NCBI GenBank assembly: GCA_013791785.1
Contig: VMTD01000041.1
Coordinates: 1 to 59,059, forward strand
Reading direction: 5' to 3'
Length of the DNA stretch: 59,059 nt
Source: Methanobacteriota archaeon
GTDB taxonomy: Archaea > Thermoplasmatota > Thermoplasmata > SG8-5
Part shown: one piece after another, positions 4,722 to 32,404 of the stretch
Layout: each line of letters opens with the position of its first letter
Numbering within the stretch: position 1 is the stretch's first letter
Made by a program: the position numbers and the translations under genes
Notes under the pieces: generated by a model
The model's input: only the letters and a program-made list of their open reading frames with translations
Told to the model about the DNA's origin: nothing
Database searches by the model: none

Positions 4722-5491
4722 TGCCATGCGACGCGGACGAACTTGCCGGCATCCTTCGTGAGATCGTGAAAGATTGCGTCAGCGGTTCCGGGGAGGTCGC
4801 GCTGATGTTCTCCGGAGGCCTCGACAGCGCCATCCTGGCCGTCCTTGCCAGGAAATTCTGCGACCTGAAACTGTACACCGCCGGCCTGGAAGGCTCCCAT
4901 GACCTGGAATGGGGCGTGGAATGCGCCGCGATTATGGATCTGCCATGCGTACCTATTGTGCTTGAAGAAAATGACATAATCGAATCGCTGGAGCGCGTGA
5001 CAGATACCCACAGAATGACCAATCCGAAATGGATGACAACGTTCGTGGGATTCGACCTGGTCCTTCGAAATATTTCCGAGAATACTGTCTTATGCGGCCA
5101 GGGTGCCGATGAACTGTTCGGCGGCTACAAAAAATACAGAACAGCGGAAGAACCGCTGGCATTGATGAAAACGGAACTCGCTGAACTCGTGGAAAATGAG
5201 TTTCCCATGTACAGGAAAGTAGCCGGACATTATGGCAAGGAATTGCTGGCCCCCTATCTTGACAGCAGAATTATCAATTTCGCTGAAAAAGTGCCAGTTA
5301 ATCAGATGCTGGACGAGACCGGAAATAAATTGGTGCTGAGGAAGGCAGCCGAGTTGCTAGGGGTACCGGGTATGATGGCCCAGAAACCGAAAAAAGCCAT
5401 GCAGTACGGCAGCGGCATATCCAAATCGGTGAAACACTATCTCAAAAGTTCGAAATTTACACTTAATGATACAATAAATAACAATCAATAG
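4718..5491 (+). CDS. Stand-alone asparagine-synthase-like PP-loop ATP pyrophosphatase
   Basis: 'MFSGGLDSAILAVLA' PP-loop and 'CGQGADELFGGYKKY' as in AsnB C-terminal domains; no N-terminal glutaminase domain. Confidence 0.8.
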   Translation: MMPCDADELAGILREIVKDCVSGSGEVALMFSGGLDSAILAVLARKFCDLKLYTAGLEGSHDLEWGVECAAIMDLPCVPIVLEENDIIESLERVTDTHRMTNPKWMTTFVGFDLVLRNISENTVLCGQGADELFGGYKKYRTAEEPLALMKTELAELVENEFPMYRKVAGHYGKELLAPYLDSRIINFAEKVPVNQMLDETGNKLVLRKAAELLGVPGMMAQKPKKAMQYGSGISKSVKHYLKSSKFTLNDTINNNQ

Positions 5492-5548
5492 CAAGAAAGT
5501 ATTTCAATGAGGTTTGCTTTATACCATCTGAAACAGTGTGGTTGGTTA

Positions 5549-6373
5549 ATGGACGTAAAACAGGTTAAAAGAAAAGTACTTCTTATCGGAGATGGGGCTG
5601 TGGGTAAGACCAGCCTTATAAGAAAATTCGTCACCGACAGGTTTGACGACAAGTACATCACCACAATAGGCGCAAAGATTACCAAAAAGGACCTCCGCTA
5701 CAAGGTCCAGGGCGGGGATATGCTTCTCACTCTGATGATATGGGACATACTTGGCCAGAAAGGCTACACCGGCGTCCAGGCTTCAAGTTACAGGGGCGCG
5801 GAGGGTGCCATGATTGTTTGCGATCTCACAAGAAAGGAGACATTGCAGAGCACCGTTGATTATTGGATACCGGAACTCAGGAAAGTTGTTGGCGAGATAC
5901 CAATGATCTTCGTGGGAAACAAGTGCGACCTTATTGATGCCAGGCAGATTTCCGAGGCCGAACTGGAGTCCACCGCAAAAAGTTTCGCCACTCAGAGCTA
6001 TGTTTCCAGCGCGAAAACCGGTGAAAATGTCGAAGCATTATTCTTGAAACTCGGTGAAGTTGTTCTCAATTATACCCCCGGCGGAAACAACAGGGCTTCC
6101 GAAACCGCACCCAGAACCATATCCAATCTGACGGATGTAACTGATATTATAATCCAGGAGTTCTGCGATTCCTTCGGGGACCAGGAGACCGCCATGGCCG
6201 CAATCAGGCAGCAATTTTCCCTCGCAGGAGTTGATGTGAAGAATCCCCAGAAAGCCCCATTGCTGAAGGCCGTCGAGCGCCTTGCAGAGGTGGAGAAAGG
6301 CTTCAAGGATGATTTCTCGGTGAAGAGCAGCCTCTCAAAACGAAAGCGCCTGATAGAGCAGCACGGCGGGTGA
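5549..6373 (+). CDS. Rab/Ras-like small GTPase with C-terminal extension
   Basis: 'GDGAVGKTSLIRKFV' (G1), 'WDILGQ' (G3), 'GNKCDL' (G4), 'SSAKTG' (G5); start taken at the internal ATG 5549. Confidence 0.9.
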   Translation: MDVKQVKRKVLLIGDGAVGKTSLIRKFVTDRFDDKYITTIGAKITKKDLRYKVQGGDMLLTLMIWDILGQKGYTGVQASSYRGAEGAMIVCDLTRKETLQSTVDYWIPELRKVVGEIPMIFVGNKCDLIDARQISEAELESTAKSFATQSYVSSAKTGENVEALFLKLGEVVLNYTPGGNNRASETAPRTISNLTDVTDIIIQEFCDSFGDQETAMAAIRQQFSLAGVDVKNPQKAPLLKAVERLAEVEKGFKDDFSVKSSLSKRKRLIEQHGG

Positions 6374-6377
6374 TGGC

Positions 6378-6929
6378 ATGGCCAAAAAACTCATGAAAAA
6401 GATATGCCTGCTCGGCGACGGAGCGGTGGGTAAAACTTCGCTTATCCGCAAATTCGTTTTTGACAGTTTCGATGACAAGTACATCATGACCTTCGGGACC
6501 AAGGTCTCCAAAAAGGAGGTCAGCATCTGCAGGAACGGTCAGGAATTCAACATGACATTCCTCATATGGGACATACTCGGCCAGCGGGTCCATGACAATG
6601 TGCATTCCGCGTATTACCAGGGCGCGGCAGGTGCCTTCATAGTCTGCGATACCACACGGCTGGAAACACTCCAGCACCTGGAGGACTGGATCAAGGTTTT
6701 CAGAACAGTGAACAACGATGCGCCGGTGGTTCTGCTGGGTAACAAATTTGACCTTGTCAGCGAGATGCAGTTCGGAGATAAGGAGCTAGGCGAGGTTGCC
6801 GGCAGGTACAACATGAAATATCACCTGACAAGCGCCAAGACCGGGGACCATGTTGAAGATTCGTTCATCGAGCTGGGGAACGAGGTAATAGACAGGCATC
6901 TGAACAAGGGAGTGAAATGCAATGAATGA
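6378..6929 (+). CDS. Rab/Ras-like small GTPase (no C-terminal extension)
   Basis: 'GDGAVGKTSLIRKFV', 'WDILGQ', 'GNKFDL', 'TSAKTG'. Confidence 0.9.
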   Translation: MAKKLMKKICLLGDGAVGKTSLIRKFVFDSFDDKYIMTFGTKVSKKEVSICRNGQEFNMTFLIWDILGQRVHDNVHSAYYQGAAGAFIVCDTTRLETLQHLEDWIKVFRTVNNDAPVVLLGNKFDLVSEMQFGDKELGEVAGRYNMKYHLTSAKTGDHVEDSFIELGNEVIDRHLNKGVKCNE

Positions 6930-7878
6930 GGCAGAGACAGCAGTCAGCTTCTTCGTCATGGGCGGAAATGCCCTGCGAAGCCTTCACGACGAGCTTCAGA
7001 TTTTACTTGGCGAGAAGGACGCGAGTTCCCTGCTGGAAAGGTATGGGTACAGATGCGGCGAGGGCCTGGTACAGAGCATAGGTTACACCTGCGATAATAT
7101 TGAAGAGATGGAGGACATACTTCCCGGAATACTCATCGAGACCGGCCTGGGCCGCGCGGTGACCAGGAAGATAACCCAGGATGAAATAATAATCGAGTTC
7201 GAGGAATCTGTGGAGGCAAACCACCTGGGCAAAAAAACCGGCATTGGATGCAATTTCACAAGGGGATACCTGGCCGGCGTGATATCTAGCCTGGTGGATG
7301 CCCGTTTCGACGGTTTCGAGGACAAGTGCCTGTGCCGCGGGGACGAGTTCTGCCTGCACAGAATCGTCAGAAATTCCATGTACGTTAAACCCGAACCCGA
7401 GAGCACAGAGGGCGAGGTGGAGAACGAACTGGAGATATGCACCGGATACCTCGTGAAGGAAGAGGTCCCGGACAGAAGCTACGAGATATTCAAGGACTGG
7501 GTCACCCACGGGCATCAGGGCCTGTGCATCACCAGGGATTTTCCTGCGAAGATACGGAAGAGATACGGCCTGGAGAAAACACCGATTATCTGGCTTTCCA
7601 CCTCGGAAACTGAAAACACGGTGCCGCCGCAGAACCTTTCGGCTCTCTTTTACCACATAGAAAATTTCCTGAAGAAGAGCCATAACGGAATCCTTCTTCT
7701 GTCTGGACTGGAGTACCTAATCACCCACAATTCCTACCAGTCGGTCCTGAAGTTCATCCAGCTCCTCAACGAGCAGATAGCCATCAGGGAAGCGGTGCTC
7801 GTGGTGCCAATCAGCCCAATGACCATGGACGAGAAGGACCTGAAGCTTATAGAAAGGGAACTCACGATATTGGAATGA
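6922..7878 (+). CDS. V4R domain - DUF835 protein
   Basis: N-terminal half V4R-like ('GCNFTRGYLAGVISSLV...CLCRGDEFCLHRI'); C-terminal half DUF835-like ('LLLSGLEYLITHNSYQSVLKFIQLLNEQIAIREAVLVVPISPMTMDEKDLKLIERELTIL'); start overlaps the upstream GTPase stop. Confidence 0.8.
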   Translation: MNEAETAVSFFVMGGNALRSLHDELQILLGEKDASSLLERYGYRCGEGLVQSIGYTCDNIEEMEDILPGILIETGLGRAVTRKITQDEIIIEFEESVEANHLGKKTGIGCNFTRGYLAGVISSLVDARFDGFEDKCLCRGDEFCLHRIVRNSMYVKPEPESTEGEVENELEICTGYLVKEEVPDRSYEIFKDWVTHGHQGLCITRDFPAKIRKRYGLEKTPIIWLSTSETENTVPPQNLSALFYHIENFLKKSHNGILLLSGLEYLITHNSYQSVLKFIQLLNEQIAIREAVLVVPISPMTMDEKDLKLIERELTILE

Positions 7879-7927
7879 GTGGGAATTCCCATAAACCTTT
7901 TATATATTCAATCAGCGATTTCTATTC

Positions 7928-8263
7928 ATGGAGAGATTCACCAAGGTCATAATCGCGGTCATTGCCCTCGGCCTGATTCTGGGCTGGTTCATTGAGCCTG
8001 CCATAACAGTTCTCGCAGGCGTGGCCCTCTGGTTCAGCATACTTCTCACCCTGGGCGGTGCGGAGGACGGGAATCCCGCCAGGACGTCCTGGTCTTTGCA
8101 CAGAGGCATTCCCGATAGACCCTACGTTCATACGGCCATGAAGTCCCAGAAAGTGCAGAAGACGGAGAACATCCGGGGGAAAAATGTCTGGATGCTGCTG
8201 ATATCTGGTGCCGCCCTGGTTGGCGTCGGAATTTACTGGATGAAACAGGCCGGGATGTGGTGA
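7928..8263 (+). CDS. Small membrane protein, paralogue of the next ORF
   Basis: Two N-terminal TM-like segments, 'GNP' loop, C-terminal TM; aligns with 8257..8604. Confidence 0.7.
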   Translation: MERFTKVIIAVIALGLILGWFIEPAITVLAGVALWFSILLTLGGAEDGNPARTSWSLHRGIPDRPYVHTAMKSQKVQKTENIRGKNVWMLLISGAALVGVGIYWMKQAGMW

Positions 8264-8604
8264 TTAACATGGAGAACGCGACCAAACTGATATTGGCCAT
8301 AGTGGGCATCGGAATTTTACTGGGTATCCTCTTTACCCCATTTGCGTTGATAGTCGCCGGAGGTGCCCTCTGGATAATACTCTGGATAGCCCAGGGCGGC
8401 ATGGCAGAAGGCAATCCCTACAAGAGAATGAACATGCGTGGCGGATTACCCAACTGGACCGTGGTGAACCAGTACCAGAAGAACGAGGAGATAGAGGTCA
8501 GGGACCGTGGTTCTTATTACACCGCGGTGTTCTTCTTCACGGCAGGCCTGATACTCATTGTGATAGGAGTCATCTGGATGTGGCTCAACGGCTCGTTCGG
8601 ATAA
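8257..8604 (+). CDS. Small membrane protein, paralogue of the previous ORF
   Basis: Shared pattern ME..TK.I.AI...LG...AG.ALW...GG..EGNP...RG..P with the upstream ORF. Confidence 0.7.
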   Translation: MVINMENATKLILAIVGIGILLGILFTPFALIVAGGALWIILWIAQGGMAEGNPYKRMNMRGGLPNWTVVNQYQKNEEIEVRDRGSYYTAVFFFTAGLILIVIGVIWMWLNGSFG

Positions 8605-31552: not shown

Positions 31553-32404
31553 ATGCCGATTGAGAGAATAAAAAAGAACATAATCATGCTCGGAGACGGG
31601 GCCGTTGGAAAGACCAGCCTTATCAAAAGATTCGTTCTTGACCAGTTCGACGACAAGTACATCACCACCATCGGAACCAAGGTCACCAAGAAGGAACTTT
31701 TTGTTGGGGATGACACGAACGGAGCCAAGATGGCACTACTGATATGGGATATACTCGGTCAGAAGGGTTACAGGTACACACAGGCCTTGTCCTTCGGCGG
31801 AATAGAGGGGGCCATACTCGTAACCGACATCACTAGACCGGAAACACTCGAGAGCATCAAGGAATACTGGATACCGTCATTGATAGGTGTCGCAGGACCT
31901 GTACCGATGGTTATCCTGGGAAACAAGACCGACCTTGTTGATGACAGAAGAATTGACGTCACCGACCTCGAGAAATTGAATGATGAGCCCGGTATGGACG
32001 GCATCATTCAGGGCTGCTACCTTTCAAGCGCCAGGACCGGGGAGTCAGTGGAGGAGGCGTTCTACGCCCTTGCCGATAATATGAGGTACGCGAACACAAT
32101 TGCCAAGGAGAATACCACCCAGTACTTCGTTGACAGGAACGAGATTCACAACCTGATGGATGTGGTGGACCACATAGTTGCGGATTTCAGCAACCAGTTC
32201 GGCGGTCTCGAGAATGCCACACCGACAATCAGATACCAGATGGAGAAAGCGGGTCTGGTATTGGATAATCCGACCTACAAGTCCGTCATCGAGTTCATTA
32301 ATGGCCTGGCCAACGTAGAATCCAGCTTCAGAACGCCCGAACAGATACGCATGAACCGTTCGAGACGATTGTACATGGCCAACAATCTTCCCACAAGAAA
32401 ATAA
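31553..32404 (+). CDS. Rab/Ras-like small GTPase with C-terminal extension
   Basis: 'GDGAVGKTSLIKRFV', 'WDILGQ', 'GNKTDL', 'SSARTG'; C-terminal region homologous to that of 5549..6373. Confidence 0.9.
   Translation: MPIERIKKNIIMLGDGAVGKTSLIKRFVLDQFDDKYITTIGTKVTKKELFVGDDTNGAKMALLIWDILGQKGYRYTQALSFGGIEGAILVTDITRPETLESIKEYWIPSLIGVAGPVPMVILGNKTDLVDDRRIDVTDLEKLNDEPGMDGIIQGCYLSSARTGESVEEAFYALADNMRYANTIAKENTTQYFVDRNEIHNLMDVVDHIVADFSNQFGGLENATPTIRYQMEKAGLVLDNPTYKSVIEFINGLANVESSFRTPEQIRMNRSRRLYMANNLPTRK

Follow-up and report, generated by a model that had tools for sequence, protein, structure and literature searches.

Conserved adjacency of a Rab-like GTPase and a V4R-domain protein in archaea suggests a paired sensor and switch

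Introduction

Rab proteins steer membrane traffic in human cells. Few archaeal Rab-like GTPases have a known cognate partner, and the layout of an Asgard genome gave none (PMC10933270). Rab-like GTPases have already been reported in a Thermoplasmatales archaeon and in Aciduliprofundum, in a study of archaeal Rab-like GTPases that makes no mention of operons or Bet3 (PMC4915359). A related question was posed in 2008, namely whether prokaryotic V4R domains, members of a fold family from which the TRAPP subunit Bet3 has been proposed to descend, were already associated with trafficking-type machinery (PMC2253512). The locus described here, in which genes for two tandem Rab-like GTPases are followed by one for a V4R-DUF835 protein, raises that question in a form that can now be tested with two proteins, far from the Asgard archaea: is the V4R protein the partner of the GTPase, and in which direction would control run? 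The archaeal GTPase–V4R adjacency suggests a previously undescribed pair of sensor and switch; a search of the openly readable literature returned no description of the pair.

The locus and its transcription unit

The window, i.e., the whole stretch of 59,059 nucleotides that was analyzed, is one contig (C49) of a 2.62 Mb genome. The source is a Methanomassiliicoccales-like archaeon, with Methanomassiliicoccales/Thermoplasmata MAGs as its closest named relatives, and its genome holds ten Ras-type GTPases, seven V4R matches, and eleven DUF835 matches. The cluster lies on one strand (+) in the order GTP1, GTP2, V4R-DUF835, TM1, and TM2, with the following features:

~5516..5525, +, putative TATA box of the GTP1-GTP2-V4R unit (gctttatacc), from the sequence and a comparable box in relatives
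5549..6373, +, GTP1, Rab-like GTPase with a C-terminal four-helix domain (Pfam Ras, E 1e-38; AlphaFold)
about 5573-6064, +, G domain of GTP1
about 6128-6364, +, C-terminal four-helix domain of GTP1 (AlphaFold pLDDT about 75-92 there)
6378..6929, +, GTP2, Rab-like GTPase, the conserved V4R partner gene (Pfam Ras, E 4e-33)
6922..7878, +, V4R-DUF835 protein, 318 aa, its start overlapping the GTP2 stop
6943..7371, +, V4R sensory domain of the MopR/PoxR type, with glycine doublets and predicted zinc ligands
7468..7863, +, DUF835 domain (Pfam PF05763), no Walker A motif
~7898..7908, +, separate TATA box upstream of TM1 and TM2, also conserved among three relatives
7928..8263, +, TM1, small membrane protein, probably transcribed separately and outside the module
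8266..8604, +, TM2, apparent TM1 paralogue, probably outside the module

A sequence-only reading had proposed these five open reading frames, and all are present at the positions it gave. Its description of two tandem small GTPases, followed by a protein with a V4R half and a DUF835 half, is borne out by the Pfam Ras matches of GTP1 and GTP2 and by V4R and DUF835 matches that both exceed their cut-offs; the overlap that it saw between the GTP2 stop and the V4R-DUF835 start amounts to 8 nt. The TATA-like box, ~28 nt 5' of the GTP1 ATG, also has a counterpart before GTP1 in relatives, and together with the overlap it suggests a single transcript of GTP1-GTP2-V4R/DUF835, which most likely makes up the whole co-transcribed unit.

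TM1 and TM2 had been read as paralogous membrane partners of the GTPase module. The two proteins do look paralogous; the partnership was rejected, since they have their own TATA box and are displaced or absent in relatives, and they are probably outside the operon. One of the three relatives that conserve this box has an extra gene in between, and a further relative showed no TM1-TM2 pair next to the cluster. The probable start of TM2 is ATG 8266, not GTG 8257, in agreement with its relative in locus L033.

Conservation of the GTPase–V4R adjacency

The survey of 399 genomes of the source's class yielded 63 full-length V4R-DUF835 genes (two of them found by profile), of which 61 were testable, the other two lying at contig ends. 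For 59 of the 61, the next gene upstream, on the same strand, encodes a GTP2-type GTPase, with 12-91 nt between the domain matches; the true exceptions, without a GTPase neighbor, are on contigs C80 of genome G001 and C35 of genome G011. Conversely, every GTPase with a GTP2-profile score of 224 bits or higher has a V4R neighbor (59/59, including those of G333 and G010). Outside the class and within the same phylum, all seven full-length V4R-DUF835 genes adjoin a GTPase.

The other neighbors of the pair vary. One family set has GlyRS, an Asn-synthase-like gene, and GTP1 beside it, and a second has PAC2 and an arginine-decarboxylase-like gene (names from reading the sequences); GTP1 is a lineage-specific third member. 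The pair itself also occurs rearranged: in family f58 the order is inverted, with the GTPase downstream of V4R-DUF835; in f56 a GTPase is followed by V4R-DUF835 and a stand-alone V4R; and f39 has GTPase, V4R-DUF835, GTPase, and stand-alone V4R, in that sequence. Divergent and stand-alone V4Rs of the linked subfamily likewise adjoin GTPases. Altogether, the pair is present in 25 families, i.e., 71 pairs in 22 families plus f9, f12, and f58. A further arrangement was observed at L177:2376-5010 (G001:C53), where four tandem Rab-like GTPases precede a stand-alone V4R of the linked subfamily.

In a control covering six genomes, including the source, a GTPase was sought within 1.5 kb of each V4R match and was found for 11 of 13 V4Rs of the subfamily vs 0 of 21 others. 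The association is therefore peculiar to one V4R subfamily and is no by-product of an abundance of GTPases. Within genomes, GTPase and V4R paralogues match weakly better as paired than when swapped (rank 6 of 128, some of these not independent). The layout names the GTPase partner unambiguously across the 25 families. The earlier suggestion of a GTPase encoded with its cognate partner, for which a synteny survey in relatives had been recommended, is supported by adjacency far in excess of chance and of the controls.

The two Rab-like GTPases

Both the G1-G5 motifs and Rab-like switch regions are present, and the best profile match is Rab21. GTP2 carries the catalytic Gln69, His76 in switch II, and the motif YYxGA at 79-83. 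The catalytic Gln is kept in 67 of 71 V4R-linked GTPases. Two switch-II residues mark the linked proteins, His76 (60/71 linked vs 6/30 unlinked) and Tyr79 (67/71 vs 5/30), in a contrast drawn against an unlinked sample that is small (n=30) and phylogenetically confounded. In a tree, the V4R-linked GTPases from 17 families group in a single clade, which contains no unlinked member of the sample. A C-terminal prenylation Cys is not conserved, as a Cys occurs among the last five residues of only 3 of 71 linked GTPases.

GTP1 was modeled with AlphaFold at an overall pLDDT of 70; the best solved-structure match of its modeled G domain is the Thorarchaeota Rab 7EZB. Its C-terminal four-helix domain, which GTP2 lacks, gave no sequence match in the PDB. 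Such a helical domain (~90 aa, without a Pfam match) is common to six of the ten Ras-type GTPases of the source genome: it is encoded at 6128-6364 and 31553-32404 of the window and in four further GTPases of the genome.

The V4R domain and its predicted zinc site

The Pfam V4R match (PF02830) covers residues 90-149 of the V4R-DUF835 protein at 32.0 bits, against a cut-off of 31. Several relatives score 40-54 bits, so this marginal value does not reflect a chance match. Additionally, a sub-threshold XylR_N match spans residues 12-72. Two GxxxG glycine doublets are the mark of the V4R/Bet3 fold (PMC2253512), and these (G42/G46 and G115/G119) occur in all 71 linked V4R proteins. Of 56 fused forms, 53 keep the four residues predicted to bind zinc, C110, E133, C136, and C144; the spacing of these residues, C-x22-E-x2-C-x7-C, is identical in MopR, and in DmpR zinc is held by three Cys and a Glu in the corresponding region (PMC7264223). 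The pairing does not depend on zinc, since families f14 and f25 have lost the ligands and kept the GTPase link. V4R-DUF835 genes without zinc ligands and with a GTPase neighbor were observed at L107 (G012), L148 (G094), and L149 (G087).

Compared with the PDB, the profile of linked V4Rs finds MopR (E 2e-7), PoxR (4e-5), and MJ1460 (6e-5), and no TRAPP chain (Bet3/TRAPPC3) is among its matches, even at E<=10. By sequence profile, the V4R domain is thus closest to the phenol sensors MopR and PoxR. The proposal that it is a relative of Bet3 stands as far as the glycine doublets go and fails at the level of the profile. The AlphaFold model of the V4R-DUF835 protein, obtained from an alignment of five close relatives, has a pLDDT of 45, too low to speak for or against a V4R/Bet3 fold.

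The DUF835 domain and KaiC

The DUF835 match covers residues 183-314 (E 1e-35; 122.8 bits vs a cut-off of 33.1). The domain has been classed as an inactivated KaiC (iKaiC), an archaeal signaling domain, and is known as an output module of response regulators in archaea (PMC5847659). None of 24 proteins checked has a Walker A motif. A profile comparison of DUF835 with KaiC, from thin alignments, showed no similarity, and the iKaiC assignment rests on the cited work (PMC5847659).

Single genes of the V4R, GTPase, or DUF835 type occasionally adjoin true KaiC genes, although not generally. On contig C43 of the source genome (L065:6843-9461), the gene for another V4R protein (309 aa) directly precedes those for a KaiC-type ATPase, in which Walker A is intact, and a 263-aa protein without a Pfam match. 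On contig C120 (L071:7436-8740), 3 nt separate a KaiC-type ATPase gene from the Rab-like GTPase gene downstream of it.

Proposed mechanism and alternatives

We propose that GTP2 and V4R(-DUF835) may well constitute a conserved two-protein module of sensor and switch, in which V4R senses a ligand and acts on, or reads, the GTPase. The V4R part would form a dimeric, zinc-stabilized pocket of the MopR/PoxR type, dimerization being expected from homology, and this pocket would sense a small hydrophobic or aromatic compound, or a lipid. V4R would then dock on its cognate Rab-like GTPase, on the side of switch II, and change or read the nucleotide state according to the ligand. DUF835, where present, might relay or anchor the signal, possibly to KaiC-type hubs; V4R versions without DUF835 point to V4R as the constant part of the module. 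Physical binding of V4R and the GTPase is likely, and ligand sensing by V4R is somewhat likely as well. As for the direction of control, an effector or reader function of V4R has somewhat less than even odds; a role as an exchange factor or GDI-like protein is on the unlikely side, and one as a GAP is improbable. That in archaea outside the Asgard group a ligand-gated V4R directly regulates the nucleotide state of a Rab-like GTPase, and that the Rab–V4R/Bet3 pairing predates, or is independent of, the eukaryotic TRAPP–Rab pairing, is doubtful.

The most probable alternative, itself held only hesitantly, makes the V4R protein an effector: GTP-bound GTP2 would recruit V4R-DUF835, and the ligand state would gate output through DUF835. 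It is consistent with the retained catalytic Gln, with a specific switch-II signature common to the linked GTPases at the place usually read by effectors, and with the known output function of DUF835 in response regulators (PMC5847659); however, stand-alone V4R partners exist that have no output domain at all.

The sequence-only reading had suggested a GEF-like regulator. In this alternative, a TRAPP-like exchange factor akin to a minimal TRAPP, V4R-DUF835, alone or as a V4R dimer, would catalyze GDP release from GTP2. In TRAPP, the main exchange surface for Rab is the longin pair, to which Bet3 adds a C-terminal tail (PMC10152722), so the step from V4R to GEF is unwarranted. The consistent presence of a Rab-like GTPase beside V4R and the invariant glycine doublets fit such an exchange factor, and the adjacent V4R paralogues of f56 and f39 could heterodimerize as TRAPP subunits do; yet the linked V4Rs have no Bet3/TRAPPC3 match in the PDB, their C-terminal end is DUF835 or the protein simply stops, and the four Roadblock genes of the source genome are on contigs without a GTPase match. 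On balance, exchange by this route seems unlikely.

Non-interacting enzymes are often encoded in one operon, and the two genes could be co-transcribed through shared regulation or need, their products never meeting. This explanation has little probability, as the pair survives neighbor turnover, order inversion, duplication, and changes in domain layout. Finally, adjacency conserved merely through genome kinship, without selection, is very improbable: the sampling covers one phylum and many pairs are vertical copies, but the families share only 33-43% identity, their surroundings differ, rearranged and duplicated versions exist, and the other V4Rs of the same genomes have no GTPase neighbors.

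Comparison with known systems

The proposed sensor and switch pair resembles bacterial MglA–MglB, in which a Ras-like small GTPase is likewise encoded beside a dedicated partner (a GAP/GEF) as a conserved pair; the partner there is Roadblock/LC7, whereas that of the archaeal pair is V4R. GTPases of the Rup type are reported never to be coupled to MglB (PMC4316618). In the source genome, no contig with a GTPase match carries any of the four Roadblock/LC7 genes, and a Roadblock partnership was rejected there. On contig C21 of that genome (L064:5087-5852, - strand), a V4R gene (5439-5852) adjoins a Roadblock/LC7 gene (5087-5437) at a distance of 1 nt; their products resemble both fold types found in the TRAPP core, and no GTPase is nearby.

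With the TRAPP core (Bet3/TRAPPC3) and the Thorarchaeota TRAPPC3, the archaeal V4R has in common the glycine doublets of the superfamily and the association with a Rab-type GTPase. It differs from them in having no sequence match to them in the PDB, in its fusion to DUF835, and in that no longin partner was seen. GTPase genes of the Asgard genome MK-D1 generally lie outside TRAPPC3 operons (PMC10933270). The GTPases themselves share the G1-G5 motifs, YYxGA, and similarity to eukaryotic Rabs with other archaeal Rab-like GTPases, and here lack a conserved C-terminal Cys.

The sensory domains of MopR, PoxR, and DmpR belong to the same V4R fold family, give the best profile matches, and in MopR have the same zinc spacing; their output is an AAA+ sigma-54 activator, whereas here it would be a separate Rab-like GTPase and DUF835. 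KaiC-hub signaling has DUF835 in common with the present system, in which the domain is fused to V4R and its linked partner is a GTPase rather than a receiver domain.
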